NCBI RefSeq assembly: GCF_002834295.1
Contig: NZ_PISP01000001.1
Coordinates: 1,302,001-1,366,000, forward strand
Length of the DNA: 64,000 nucleotides
Direction of reading: 5' to 3'
Source of the DNA: Rhodohalobacter barkolensis
GTDB taxonomy: Bacteria; Bacteroidota; Rhodothermia; Balneolales; Balneolaceae
This document shows positions 52,831 to 58,708 of this stretch, in pieces. Every line of letters starts with the position of its first letter. Within the stretch, counting starts at the first letter, position 1. A program made the translations under genes and the position numbers. The notes below the pieces were generated by a model that saw only the letters and a program-made list of their open reading frames with translations, did no database searches and was not told the origin of the DNA.

Positions 52831-54672
52831 ATGAAGAAATTTACCGGCTCACTCATTCAATGTCTGATTCTCGTTGCATTTATTTTAACATCGGCAACTG
52901 CTCAGCCGTCGACTCTCACAGTTCCTCTGATTGAAGATGGACAAGCTCAGATCATCGAGGCGTTCCAGAACCCTGAAGAGTGGATTCGCCATGATCTTTG
53001 GGTAGAAACCGATTTTGACACAGATGGAGACGGAAATCCCGACAGGATGTACGTATCCGTTACACGACCGGCTCAAACCGAAAACGGTGACCTGAAACTA
53101 CCCGTTATCTATGAGACTAGCCCCTATTATGCCGGAACCGCTCGTCCGCCATACGATTTCTTCTGGGATGTAAAGCAGGAACTTGGAGAAGACCCTCCGG
53201 TTCGGAAACCGGGTCCTGAAATTGAACGCCGTGGTGAACGACCTATCATCTCCAATTCACACACTTCCACGTGGGTTCCGCGCGGATTTATCGTGGTTCA
53301 CTCCACATCACCCGGAACCGGACTGTCTGACGGTTCACCTTCTGTTGGTGGAGAAAATGAAGCACTGGCTCCAAAAGCTGTCATTGACTGGTTAAACGGC
53401 CGGGCTAACGGATACACAACACGAGATGGAGACGAAGAGGTTGAGGCATTCTGGACCAATGGCAATGTGGGGATGACCGGAACATCCTATAACGGATTTT
53501 TACCGTTTGCAGCGGCCACAACCGGCGTGGATGGATTGAAGGCGATCATACCGGTAGCTCCAGTAACTTCTTTCTACATGTACTATCGGTCCAACGGGTT
53601 GGTACGATCTCCCGGCGGTTACCTTGGTGAAGATGCCGATGTACTTTATGACTTCGTACACAGCGGGGACGAAGCTAAACGAGAATACAACAACCGCACC
53701 ATGCGAGATGGCATCATGGCCGAGGGACTGGATCGAAAAAACGGAGATTACAACGATTTCTGGGAAGAACGGGATTACCTCAAACAGATGGAGAATTATA
53801 AAGCTGCAACATTGATGGCCCACGCTTTTAATGACTGGAATGTAATGACAGAGAACAGCTATCAGGCCTATGAAAAACTACAAGAAATGGGTGTGCCATC
53901 CATGGTTTACTATCATCAGGGTGGTCACGGTGGCGAACCTCCACACGAATTGATGAATAAGTGGTTTACCCGATACCTTTTTGAGGTTGAAAACGGAGTT
54001 GAGGATCTGGAAAGATCATGGATTGTACGTGAACGTGATGAGCGTGAAAATCCTACCCCCTACGAAAATTATCCACATCCGGCAGCCTCTCCGGTTACGT
54101 TTCATCTGACATCCGGTGCACCCGAAAGAGGTGGATTGACGCTTTCGCAACCCGAGTCTCAGGGAAATGAAACACTGGTTGATAACTACTCCTTTACGGG
54201 TTCAGCACTGGCTCAGGCCGAATGGACAGATCACCGATTAATCTACCTGACACCTGAACTTCAGGACTCTGTTCATATCTCCGGAGTGCCTTCGGTTTCC
54301 GTTACATTGGCGAGCAGTAAACCGGCTGCAAACTTAACCGTATGGCTCGTTTCGCTTCCGTGGAATGAGGGTCGAAACTCTCAAATTACCGATAATATTA
54401 TCACGAGAGGTTGGGCGAGTCCGCAAAATAGAAACTCACTTCGGGAAAGTGAACCATTGGAACCCGGAGAATTTTATACTGTTGAATTTGACCTTCAACC
54501 GGATGATCAGATCATCCCTTACGGTCAGCAAATAGGTCTGCTTATTTTCTCTAGTGACAAAGAGTATACTCTTTGGCCACAACCGGGTACAGAGTTAACT
54601 ATTGACCTGGACAATACAACCTTAACACTTCCGGTAGTGAACGGCAGGGATGCACTTTCAGGCATGAATTAA
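52831..54672 (+). CDS. CocE/NonD or X-Pro dipeptidyl-peptidase family hydrolase
   Basis: 613 residues with a signal peptide (MKKFTGSLIQCLILVAFILTSATA). The alpha/beta hydrolase N-terminal part has 'YVSVTRPAQTENGDLKLPVIYETSPY', and the nucleophile Ser in 'GNVGMTGTSYNGFLPFAAATTGVDG'. Then 'AHAFNDWNV', 'HQGGHGG', and a C-terminal beta-sandwich (PepX_C-like: 'ISGVPSVSVTLASSKPAANLTVWLVSL') follow, as in peptidase S15 and cocaine esterases. Likely a secreted dipeptidyl peptidase or ester hydrolase. Single gene. Confidence 0.9.
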   Translation: MKKFTGSLIQCLILVAFILTSATAQPSTLTVPLIEDGQAQIIEAFQNPEEWIRHDLWVETDFDTDGDGNPDRMYVSVTRPAQTENGDLKLPVIYETSPYYAGTARPPYDFFWDVKQELGEDPPVRKPGPEIERRGERPIISNSHTSTWVPRGFIVVHSTSPGTGLSDGSPSVGGENEALAPKAVIDWLNGRANGYTTRDGDEEVEAFWTNGNVGMTGTSYNGFLPFAAATTGVDGLKAIIPVAPVTSFYMYYRSNGLVRSPGGYLGEDADVLYDFVHSGDEAKREYNNRTMRDGIMAEGLDRKNGDYNDFWEERDYLKQMENYKAATLMAHAFNDWNVMTENSYQAYEKLQEMGVPSMVYYHQGGHGGEPPHELMNKWFTRYLFEVENGVEDLERSWIVRERDERENPTPYENYPHPAASPVTFHLTSGAPERGGLTLSQPESQGNETLVDNYSFTGSALAQAEWTDHRLIYLTPELQDSVHISGVPSVSVTLASSKPAANLTVWLVSLPWNEGRNSQITDNIITRGWASPQNRNSLRESEPLEPGEFYTVEFDLQPDDQIIPYGQQIGLLIFSSDKEYTLWPQPGTELTIDLDNTTLTLPVVNGRDALSGMN

Positions 54673-54771
54673 GGACAATCATACTTCAAATAGTGCAGAT
54701 GAATTTTTGCCAAATGAGATGGTGAAAAAATTATTTGCATTTTCTTTGAAGACCGTTCTATCTTAAGAGCA

Positions 54772-54840
54772 ATGAAAAATTCAAACCTACATTACACAAC
54801 TTTTATGATCTGCCCCATGTGTATGCATAGTCACACATAG
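54772..54840 (+). CDS. Putative 22-codon Met/Cys leader peptide of the methionine operon
   Basis: A short frame ATG at 54772 to TAG at 54840. Its C-terminal half reads MICPMCMHSHT: three Met, two Cys and two His within 11 codons. A weak AAGAG sits five bases before the ATG. The terminator that follows (54874-54900) and a sequence able to block it (AGAGGG, 54844) are arranged as in amino-acid attenuators. It lies in front of metY, metX and hom, so sensing of Met or Cys tRNA charging is the natural guess. Coding is not proven; it is far below usual gene size. Confidence 0.55.
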   Translation: MKNSNLHYTTFMICPMCMHSHT

Positions 54841-54843
54841 AGT

Positions 54844-54900
54844 AGAGGGTATATTTTTCATTAAGAAATTTGAAAGGCCCTCTGGAAACAGCAGGGCTTT
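54844..54900 (+). terminator. Attenuator: terminator with competing antiterminator
   Basis: Terminator stem: 54874-54884 pairs with 54889-54900 (GGCCCTCTG, loop GAAA, CAG-C-AGGGCT with one bulged C), then TTTATTTG. Antiterminator: AGAGGG at 54844-54849 is complementary to CCCTCT at 54878-54883, which is inside the 5' arm of the terminator. The two structures exclude each other. AGAGGG starts four bases after the leader stop codon, so a ribosome at the stop would cover it. Confidence 0.6.
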
Positions 54901-54944
54901 ATTTGTTCAGATAAATTGAACAGCGTTCTTTAAAATTAATGAGT

Positions 54945-55073
54945 CTTATCAAGAAAGGTGGAGGGACAGGCCCTTTGAAGCCTTAGCAACCGCCTCTCGA
55001 ATTTATTCGGGAGGGTTAGGTGCTAAATCCTGCCCGTTTTGGTTTTCAACAACCAAAATTTGGGAAAGATAAG
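54945..55073 (+). ncRNA. SAM-I (S-box) riboswitch aptamer
   Basis: P1 is CTTATC (54945-54950) paired with GATAAG (55068-55073). The conserved core reads 'AAGAAAGGTGGAGGGAC' then 'GGCCCTTTGAAGCCT', 'AGCAACC', 'GCTAAATCCTGC', all in the order of the S-box. P3 is GCCTCTCGAAT...ATTCGGGAGG and P4 is the TTTTGGTT-TTCAACAACCAAAA hairpin. It binds S-adenosylmethionine and turns off the downstream genes when SAM is high. Confidence 0.93.
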
Positions 55074-55109
55074 AAGCCGGCTCACCTGTTGTTACTTCAG
55101 GTTCTGTTT

Positions 55110-56530
<1,421 letters not shown>

Positions 56531-56587: not shown

Positions 56588-57634
56588 ATGAATAAAGGTA
56601 TCACTACAACAACTTTGGAAACGGATTTCATTACTGAATCCGGATTTCGGTTTGAAAAAGCGCCGGTTGCCTATAAAACCTGGGGTGAACTCAATAGTGA
56701 AAAGGATAACGTCATCTTGATTTTTCACGCACTGACGGGACACGCAGCCGCTGATGAATGGTTTCCCGGGATCTTTGGCGAAGGAAATATTTGCGATCCG
56801 GATGAGCATTTTATTATCTGCATCAACGTACCGGGAAGCTGTTATGGTTCTGTAGGTCCTCAATCCATCAACCCGAAAAACGGTAAAGCTTACAAAAATG
56901 GCTTTCCCGAAATCACCATTCGGGATATGGTTCGATTTCAACAACAACTGTTGGATCAACTTGGTATTACCGGAATTGAACTCGTAATCGGCGGTTCCAT
57001 GGGCGGAATGCAAGCTCTGGAATTCATATTTATGGATCGCCGTGCTCGTTCAGCTGTACTGATCGCCATGGGGAAAGCTCATACCCCATGGGCGATCGGT
57101 ATCAGCCATGCCCAGAGAGCAGCCATTAAAAATGACCCAAACTGGAACAATGGAATTTATGAACCGGAAAACGGTCCGTTCCGGGGTGTAGCTACAGCAC
57201 GAATGATGGCGATGGTGACCTATCGGGCACCTGAAGATTACAACCAAAAATTTGGGCGAAAACATCAGAATGAAGATGGCCAGTTTCAGATCGAGTCCTA
57301 TCTCAACTACCAGGGACAGAAGCTGGCAAAGCGAATGGACGCTCACACCTATATCACTCTTACAAAGGCGATGGATTCTCATGATATCTCCCGAAATAGA
57401 AGTGACTTTGAACTGATTTTGAATCGCATTGAAATTCCGATTCAGGTCATTGGGATCACTTCAGATCACCTCTACCCTGTTGCCGAACAGAAAGAGCTGG
57501 CGAATCTTTTGCCTAATGGTCGTTTCGCAGAGATCGATTCACACGCAGGCCATGACGGATTTCTAATCGAATTTGATCAGCTCAATAGTATCATCAAACC
57601 CTTTACCCACCGAAAAGAACTTTTAATCTACTGA
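56588..57634 (+). CDS. metX: Homoserine O-acetyltransferase
   Basis: 348 residues. Alpha/beta hydrolase-type acyltransferase: 'VILIFHALTGHAAADEWFPGIFG', nucleophile Ser in 'VIGGSMGGMQALEF', Asp in 'SDHLYPVAEQ' and His in 'HAGHDGFLIE'. It activates homoserine with acetyl-CoA for MetY. Between metY and metX there are 57 bases with no clear terminator, so they should share the riboswitch control. Confidence 0.95.
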   Translation: MNKGITTTTLETDFITESGFRFEKAPVAYKTWGELNSEKDNVILIFHALTGHAAADEWFPGIFGEGNICDPDEHFIICINVPGSCYGSVGPQSINPKNGKAYKNGFPEITIRDMVRFQQQLLDQLGITGIELVIGGSMGGMQALEFIFMDRRARSAVLIAMGKAHTPWAIGISHAQRAAIKNDPNWNNGIYEPENGPFRGVATARMMAMVTYRAPEDYNQKFGRKHQNEDGQFQIESYLNYQGQKLAKRMDAHTYITLTKAMDSHDISRNRSDFELILNRIEIPIQVIGITSDHLYPVAEQKELANLLPNGRFAEIDSHAGHDGFLIEFDQLNSIIKPFTHRKELLIY

Positions 57635-57637
57635 GAT

Positions 57638-58708
57638 ATGTCACAATTGCACGCCATCAAAAAAAACCGAGTCCCATTTGCCAAACCGAAACCTGTTAAA
57701 AAAATATTTATTGCCGGTGTTGGAGCTGTAGGTTGCACGCTGGTTAAACAGATTGAAGGTCACCACTCACTTCGAGTTGTAGGTATTTGCAACTCTCAAC
57801 ACGTACAGTGGTTCAGAAGAGAAGAAGCGAACTACAGGAGAAGTGAGTTACAAATTTCACCTGACAAACATTGGGATAATATTATCCGGAAACTAAGCTC
57901 ATACAAAAAAGGGAGTGTTATATTTGTGGATGCAACGGGAAGTTCTGAAGTCTCGGCTCTCTATCCACAGTTGTTTGAAAACCATATCCATGTTGTAACT
58001 CCAAGTAAGCTTGCCAACACACAAAGCCAGGAAACCTTTGAAAACCTTCATCAGCTTGCCAATGAGTTTGATGTGGAATTTCACTACGAAACCAACGTAG
58101 GGGCAGGTCTGCCGGTTGTAAACACCATTAAAAATTTGATTGCTTCAGGAGATGAAATCATCGAAATCAGCGGTGTGGTTTCCGGAACAATGACGTATCT
58201 CTTCTCTGAGTTGGAAAATGGAGCTTCCTTTAGCGAAACCGTGAACAGAGCACGAACACTGGGTTATGCTGAACCCGATCCCAGGGATGATTTATCGGGA
58301 GAAGATGTGGCCCGAAAGTTTTTGATCTTGGCACGAATCTGTGGTGTTCGAATAGAACGAGATGAAGTAAATGTAGAATCACTTATTCCTGAAAACCTCA
58401 AGAATGTTGATGCAACCCAATTTCTTGACAGATTGGCTGAAGCAGACAACAACTGGCAACAAAAGATCGCCTTAGAAAAAGAAAAAGACCGGGTGTTGAG
58501 ATACACGGGCAAATTGGAAAACGGAAAAATTGACGTCGGTATTGAAGCCGTTCCCAAACTATCCGCATTGGGAAATCTGACAGGTACTACAAATCTCATT
58601 ACGATCAGAACAAAACGATATAACGACCAGCCGCTTACTGTTCAGGGACCCGGAGCAGGGAAAGAAGTTACCGCAGCCGGTGTACTGGCAGATATTCTGA
58701 AGATTTGA
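57638..58708 (+). CDS. hom: Homoserine dehydrogenase
   Basis: 356 residues, a free-standing enzyme without an aspartokinase or ACT domain. The NAD(P) motif is 'KKIFIAGVGAVGCTLVKQI'. The catalytic region has 'VTPSKLANTQSQETFENL', 'FHYETNVGAGLPVVNTIKNLIASGDEI', 'ISGVVSGTMTYLFSELENG' and 'DPRDDLSGEDVARKFLILAR'. It starts four bases after metX. It supplies homoserine for MetX. The absence of an ACT domain means no obvious Thr feedback on this copy. Confidence 0.95.
   Translation: MSQLHAIKKNRVPFAKPKPVKKIFIAGVGAVGCTLVKQIEGHHSLRVVGICNSQHVQWFRREEANYRRSELQISPDKHWDNIIRKLSSYKKGSVIFVDATGSSEVSALYPQLFENHIHVVTPSKLANTQSQETFENLHQLANEFDVEFHYETNVGAGLPVVNTIKNLIASGDEIIEISGVVSGTMTYLFSELENGASFSETVNRARTLGYAEPDPRDDLSGEDVARKFLILARICGVRIERDEVNVESLIPENLKNVDATQFLDRLAEADNNWQQKIALEKEKDRVLRYTGKLENGKIDVGIEAVPKLSALGNLTGTTNLITIRTKRYNDQPLTVQGPGAGKEVTAAGVLADILKI

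Follow-up and report, generated by a model that had tools for sequence, protein, structure and literature searches.

A probable cysteine- and methionine-responsive attenuator in series with a SAM-I riboswitch upstream of metY-metX-hom in Rhodohalobacter barkolensis and its Balneolales relatives

Introduction

The classical attenuators of enteric bacteria (trp, his, leu, thr, ilv, and phe) have a leader ORF with codons for the amino acid of the pathway, a stop codon just before segment 2, the pairings 1:2, 2:3, and 3:4, and a terminator. The leader of metY in Rhodohalobacter barkolensis is alike in all of these. Unlike the classical attenuators, it carries a signal of Cys plus Met, belongs to the Bacteroidota (in the wide sense), is probably leaderless, and stands in series with a SAM-I riboswitch. 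According to the accessible portion of PMC3766115, Rfam in 2013 covered attenuators for His, Leu, Thr, and Trp only.

Leaderless poly-Cys sORFs that respond to cysteine have been described in mycobacteria (Canestrari 2020, as cited in the available text of PMC13236596). Cys codons near the stop are common to both systems, and the leaderless start of the mycobacterial sORFs may have a counterpart here, judging by promoter spacing. The mycobacterial cys leaders are described as acting by translation attenuation (PMC13236596, same portion) and have no conserved terminator hairpins, as far as the excerpted text of PMC1262725 goes. In contrast, the leader described here has a conserved intrinsic terminator and a predicted antiterminator, has Met codons mixed in, and precedes metYX-hom. 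Tandem SAM-I and adenosylcobalamin riboswitches were found upstream of metE of Bacillus clausii (PMC2258182, accessible part). That system resembles ours in having two independent termination-controlling sensors before a methionine gene, but one of the sensors here would be a translated leader peptide, not an aptamer. In the same broad phylum, leader-peptide attenuation has been suggested for amino acid operons of Flavobacterium psychrophilum; the available portion of PMC9723704 names neither a Cys/Met leader nor a riboswitch partner.

Among the papers listed by searches of the open-licence full-text literature, none described a leader peptide of Cys/Met type coupled in series to a SAM riboswitch, nor did the accessible portions of PMC2965389, PMC4833913, PMC7366714, and PMC9373788; the survey of bacterial attenuation by Lopatovskaya 2010 may hold related cases. 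As far as the literature searches show, the attenuation logic is old; what is new is the pairing of these two amino acids, the lineage, and the placement in series with SAM-I and a boxA-like element. From comparative sequence analysis, we consider it very probable that the leader attenuates transcription through the ribosome in response to charged tRNA-Cys and tRNA-Met and, in series with SAM-I, controls metY-metX-hom. The leader probably stops transcription when Cys and Met are plentiful, and most of the sampled Balneolales relatives have the same layout of leader and SAM-I.

Results and Discussion

The metY leader

The window is the whole stretch of 64,000 nucleotides that was analysed. Its relevant genes are, in order, era, the Xaa-Pro dipeptidyl-peptidase gene, metY, metX, and hom, with the leader region (54735-55160) between the peptidase gene and metY. 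From 5' to 3', the leader consists of a promoter, the Cys/Met ORF, terminator 1, a boxA-like element, SAM-I, and terminator 2, followed by metY-metX-hom (Table 1). MetX was under the cut-off of TIGR01392 (403 of 500), and the match of hom to PRK09436 (375 bits) was below the model cut-off of 726. The family annotation of MetY includes cysteine synthase.

A sequence-only reading of this stretch had placed the stop of the ORF at 54840, AGAGGG at 54844-54849, and CCCTCT at 54878-54883 in the terminator arm, and these coordinates are right to the base. It had also stated that the attenuator is in series with a SAM-I riboswitch, that methionine genes follow, and that it knew of no named family with this peptide. 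The matches in Table 1 agree with the first two statements. As to the third, no attenuator or amino acid operon leader family of Rfam matched the leader, and a permissive Rfam threshold over the element gave chance-level matches only (HrrF with 21.8 bits vs 77 needed, ncr952, and snR46). No T-box was matched in 54673-55204 even at E values up to 5.

Table 1. Positions of genes and leader features in the window
Feature	Position	Strand	Description
Xaa-Pro peptidase gene	52831-54672		Upstream of the leader region
Promoter	54735..54764	+	By sequence: TTGCAT (54735-54740), 18-nt spacer, TATCTT (54759-54764)
Leader peptide ORF	54772..54840	+	22 codons, MKNSNLHYTTFMICPMCMHSHT; ATG 54772, stop TAG 54838-54840
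Segment 1	54809..54823	+	TCTGC (54809-54813) and CATGTGTA (54816-54823), inside the Cys/Met codons; predicted to pair with segment 2 and the preceding bases
Segment 2	54843..54850	+	TAGAGGGT; 5' strand of the predicted antiterminator, also 3' strand of the predicted protector hairpin
Segment 3	54877..54884	+	GCCCTCTG; partner of segment 2 (antiterminator) or segment 4 (terminator)
Intrinsic terminator 1	54874..54904	+	Stem 54874-54900, T-rich tail to 54904
boxA-like element	54925..54935	+	GTTCTTTAAAA; follows terminator 1 and precedes the aptamer
SAM-I riboswitch aptamer	54943..55075	+	RF00162, 79.9 bits vs gathering threshold 44.4
Intrinsic terminator 2	55110..55159	+	SAM-I expression platform; 55110-55155 in the terminator scan
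metY	55205..56530	+	O-acetylhomoserine sulfhydrylase; TIGR01326, 694 bits
metX	56588..57634	+	Homoserine O-acetyltransferase family; NF001209, 372.9 bits, cut-off 331
hom	57638..58708	+	Homoserine dehydrogenase-like protein; best match is the dehydrogenase part of PRK09436

Upstream of metY, a short ORF rich in Cys and Met (at least five Cys plus Met, including at least two Cys, within 10 residues) was present on the sense strand in 57 of the 67 Balneolales regions, the window included; since close species are among them, the 67 regions are not independent. The same score was reached by 3/67 regions on the reverse strand and by 0.006 per shuffled region (0.6%). On these sequence counts, the Cys/Met leader frame in Balneolales is not due to chance. 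Ten regions were below the score (L007, L016, L026, L028, L030, L038, L040, L041, L045, and L050), and shorter Cys/Met runs were seen in L028, L030, L038, and L040. SAM-I was not found in L016, which is a short contig end. L007 (identical to L054), from a genus relative, has SAM-I and a boxA-like site without the Cys/Met leader, and this absence is probably a natural loss.

The peptides of the relatives end in sequences such as CMMCMCCFT, CTMCMCMHSHI, CCMSCCCR, and MCCMYMCKMHI. Their N-termini, lengths, and C-termini all vary, and Cys and Met exchange freely. A search for CPMCMH-like endings had been suggested. As an exact motif, CPMCMH failed as a conserved unit: the pattern TGYCCNATGTGYATGCAY occurred in only 2 of 296 phylum genomes, at the window's own locus and at one place in G127 that has no such leader. 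The conserved parts, judged across the relatives, are the Cys/Met content, its position, and the pairing, not the exact peptide motif. The copy in the window is weaker than those of many relatives, with two Cys codons, an imperfect U-tract, and a G-U pair in 1:2.

We counted codons at 27 loci (the 28 family loci described below without L013) by the distance from the first base of the codon to segment 2. Cys and Met together made up 87% of the codons at 16-21 nt, 95% at 22-27 nt, and 70% at 28-33 nt, and their share was 23% at 34-39 nt, 26% at 40-45 nt, and 35% at 0-15 nt. Beyond 45 nt it was 0-2%, except for 5% Met at 58-66 nt. The sensing zone is composed of 44-52% Cys and 43% Met, and the relatives use Cys no less than Met; the Cys codons of the leaders are TGT (97) and TGC (22). 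Given the size of ribosome footprints, a ribosome stalled with its A site in the Cys/Met-rich zone would cover segment 1 and leave segment 2 free. The Met/Cys codons, which had been proposed as the pause site, are where such a site would be expected, but the proposal that His belongs to the signal did not hold for the family. His accounted for 2/54 codons at 16-21 nt and 8/81 codons at 0-15 nt. The codons of the window's own zone, 32 to 17 nt before segment 2, are Cys, Pro, Met, Cys, Met, and His, and the first His codon is at 17 nt. A contribution of His may be local to the window; as a signal of the family it was rejected on the codon counts.

When positions 54840-54890 were folded alone, they formed the antiterminator (-14.0 kcal/mol; 2/200 shuffles were as good), and 54862-54912 alone formed the terminator (-17.3; 0/200 shuffles were as good). 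The whole leader (54772-54912) folded as the 1:2 hairpin plus the terminator (z -2.8; 1/200 shuffles), and in this hairpin the Cys/Met codons are paired with the bases around the stop. The window itself has 6/7 pairs in 1:2, and most listed relatives have a better U-tract (TTTTTT) than its TTTATTT.

For comparison, 28 family loci were drawn from 44 unique leader loci; the remaining 16 have diverged arms. Pairing 2:3 was present in 26 of the 28 (4.9 expected from shuffles), and 1:2 had 7/7 pairs in 17 (2.3 expected). At one site, segments 2/3/4 read A/U/A in most loci, G/C/G in L009 and L065, and U/A/U in L022. In L027, segments 2/3 are changed to G/C. Segment 1 follows the coordinated change in L009, L065, and L027. 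Covariation was calculated on 21 of the 28 rows. Several of the rows left out (L005, L013, L022, L024, L027, L061, and L074) pair poorly in 1:2; some of them would help and some would hurt. In helices 1:2 and 3:4, 95.9% of cells were paired and 14 showed a double change, a number reached by 0/500 shuffles; for further pair types in the same two helices, 43/500 shuffles reached the observed value. Helix 2:3 was 98.2% paired, compared with at most 63% when slid. Alone, it had one doubly changed pair, reached by 165/500 shuffles, and thus shows little covariation.

In the order as a whole, 57 of 65 regions had a leader with at least four Cys plus Met; 15 of the 16 loci with diverged arms (not L041) were included in this test. 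A terminator followed in 53 of the 57 (shuffles 7.5%), and a terminator together with a complementary run of at least 6 nt near the leader stop was found for 45 (shuffles 4.0%). No terminator was found after the Cys/Met leader in L029, L030, L033, and L034, where the mechanism may be a different one. The predicted antiterminator, terminator, and 1:2 protector hairpin are conserved and mutually exclusive. The sequence-only reading had argued that a pause at Met/Cys frees AGAGGG and that a ribosome at the stop covers it. This logic fits the conserved frame, the 2:3 pairing, the coordinated changes, and the clustering of Cys/Met codons at the distance where a stalled ribosome would expose segment 2; both the frame and the AGAGGG/CCCTCT pairing, on whose conservation the argument depended, are conserved in the relatives. 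To it the present analysis adds the predicted 1:2 protector hairpin, a probable leaderless start, and the boxA-like element before the aptamer.

The covariance model of the element was run over 128 genomes of the order with stricter filters and had matches at E<=1 in 102 of them. Among the matches listed, at least 33 had E values below 1e-4. We inspected 70 of the listed matches (the best 30 and 40 chosen others). Since 54 of the 70 precede metY (21 seed rows and 33 others) and 51 of these 54 have an ORF whose last 13 residues include at least four Cys plus Met (exceptions L179, L185, and L201), the element goes with metY. The other 16 inspected matches are elsewhere; L175 and L178 reach four by chance, inside a coding gene and in another frame. 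There are five matches in the genome of the window, four of them weak (E >= 0.086 where listed). Three of the four (L197, L203, and L204) were considered as further copies and rejected. Like L175 and L178, they fall inside coding genes or at gene ends, and no paralogue was found among these three.

The -10 box of the promoter ends 7 nt ahead of the leader ATG in the window. Promoters with at least 9/12 matches that end 6-8 nt before the leader start codon were found for 29 of 55 Balneolales leaders (shuffles 6.6%). A loose promoter rule (49/55, with distance 7 in 30) was uninformative, as 76% of shuffles pass it. A consensus promoter scan, in which TTGACA was wanted, did not list the promoter at 54735. 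Promoter spacing of this kind would put +1 at or beside the AUG, and from it we infer that the leader ORF probably has a leaderless start. The scan listed no promoter-like site between terminator 1 and the aptamer, though promoters of another type would escape the consensus that it uses.

In 62 of 64 Balneolales loci (shuffles 3.0%), the SAM-I core is preceded at -33 to -43 by GTTCTTT or, in L028, L044, and L049, by a one-base variant. The exceptions are L027, which has the motif at -72, and L037, which has none. The motif is kept where the leader is missing (L007, L026, and L045). GTTCTTT is also located 84 nt upstream of the 16S rRNA start motif in the same genome. The element shares the GTTCTTT motif with the rRNA-type boxA antitermination element, but here it precedes a riboswitch, and its role is putative, possibly to keep Rho from acting on the long untranslated leader. 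A boxB-like hairpin before the motif was rejected as too weak (stem of at least 5 in 23/36 vs 38% of shuffles).

One RF00162 match was found in this genome. Similarly, 11 of 12 genus relatives have one match, and G296 has none. By eye, the loop of terminator 2 (ATCTTTCCCA, 55125-55134) can pair over 10 nt with TGGGAAAGAT (55061-55070), and this pairing can serve as a candidate antiterminator. Some genus members have an extra gene between SAM-I and metY (956-1429 in L006 and 683-1273 in L009), whose product presumably resembles a CoA-binding-domain protein.

Proposed mechanism

In the proposed mechanism, the transcript would begin at the leader AUG or next to it, with a ribosome loading at its 5' end. 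When Cys or Met is short, the ribosome would stall on codons 54805-54825, with segment 1 melted or masked. Segment 2 would then be free to pair with segment 3, and RNA polymerase would read on. When both amino acids are plentiful, the ribosome would reach the stop and cover segment 2, and 3:4 would terminate transcription. Without translation, 1:2 would form and 3:4 would terminate again. A polymerase past terminator 1 would meet the boxA-like site, presumably shielding the long untranslated leader from Rho, and next the SAM-I switch, which would terminate at high SAM. With two terminators in series, metYX-hom would thus be expressed only if Cys/Met-tRNA charging and SAM are both low. This would be an AND of two shortages, unless there is an undetected promoter between the two terminators.

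The ORF might instead encode a functional small protein, such as a Cys/Met/His peptide that binds or senses metal, in which case translation, not tRNA charging, would be the signal. It is generally known that endings like CxxCMHSHT could bind copper or zinc, and a few relatives have C-terminal extensions past the Cys/Met run (HLQPED in L031 and L205). However, the variable ends and length and the free interchange of Cys and Met are not what such a protein would lead one to expect. What stays constant is the spacing between the run and segment 2 and not a peptide motif, and the leader occurs with metY and, in most cases, with a terminator. We regard a small protein as most improbable. It is also highly unlikely that terminator 1 is a plain terminator of the Xaa-Pro peptidase gene, with a separate SAM-I transcript and an incidental ORF. 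The terminator does come after that gene, and there may be a promoter past 54904, but a promoter-like pair between the peptidase gene and the leader is enriched in relatives, a terminator follows the leader in nearly all the order-wide loci, leaders and model matches go together with metY, and the scan listed no promoter-like site ahead of the aptamer.

The remaining alternative concerns the signal. If one amino acid were sensed, Met alone or Cys alone, the codons of the other would be passive. MetY makes a methionine precursor, which would suit Met. In favour of Cys, this residue is dominant in many relatives (CMMCMCC), poly-Cys ORFs precede metY elsewhere, and the MetY family is annotated also as cysteine synthase. 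The similar shares of Cys and Met in the sensing zone argue against a single sensor, which we consider unlikely but worth keeping in mind. If the attenuator does sense both charged tRNAs, a single leader would combine the reading of Cys/Met tRNA charging with a metabolite riboswitch. Such a leader would be a naturally occurring RNA gate with two inputs for sulfur amino acids, in a phylum for which the literature searches returned little on RNA-level control of methionine synthesis. The loci provide many natural variants whose arms covary, they point to the use of boxA outside rRNA operons, and they make a testable claim of which shortage opens which terminator.

Related leaders in other lineages

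In the class outside Balneolales, a Cys/Met ORF was found in 1 of 27 metY upstream regions and on the reverse strand also in 1 of 27, so these 27 regions hold no signal, with the possible exception of L263. Elsewhere in the phylum, 12 of 45 regions had such an ORF, compared with 0/45 on the reverse strand and 0.3% of shuffles; this phylum group includes L289, which belongs to the class and has no such ORF.

Two other layouts were seen. In Pontibacter, Imperialibacter, Cesiribacter, and others, SAM-I comes first and an ORF follows near its P1 stem. Among 50 loci with an aptamer core recognised by pattern (duplicates included), 41 had an ATG within 45 nt of the P1 end, at 10 nt in 27 of these 41. 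At least two Cys in the last 12 residues were found in 16 of the 41 SAM-I-first ORFs. Eleven loci have a Cys-ending ORF after SAM-I (L086, L087, L109, L117, L120, L121, L123, L124, L128, L280, and L283), with the ATG 8-11 nt after the P1 stem and the stop 123-154 nt before metY. Rfam confirmed SAM-I in L086, L087, L109, L121, L124, and L128. In SAM-I-first loci, the SAM switch may gate translation of a cysteine leader. In the tandem layout, read by eye, two Cys/Met ORFs, each with a terminator-like hairpin and a T-run, precede metY. It was found in Melioribacter (L084), L264, and L295, and L085 and L229 look similar. An Rfam run on L084 and L085 found no SAM-I in these two.

We tentatively propose that the control of metY in Bacteroidota (in the wide sense) has two interchangeable modules, a Cys/Met leader and SAM-I, which are wired by lineage, though we would lean slightly away from this general scheme at present. 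The leader would precede SAM-I in Balneolales. SAM-I would precede the leader in Pontibacter, Imperialibacter, Cesiribacter, and others, with SAM gating translation of the sensor, and two Cys/Met attenuators would act without SAM-I in Melioribacter and others. In the same scheme, the boxA of Balneolales would let a polymerase released by the first sensor reach the second. Many of the loci L088-L129, from Algoriphagus and relatives, keep the spacing of the ORF start after SAM-I and have ORFs without the Cys-rich end.
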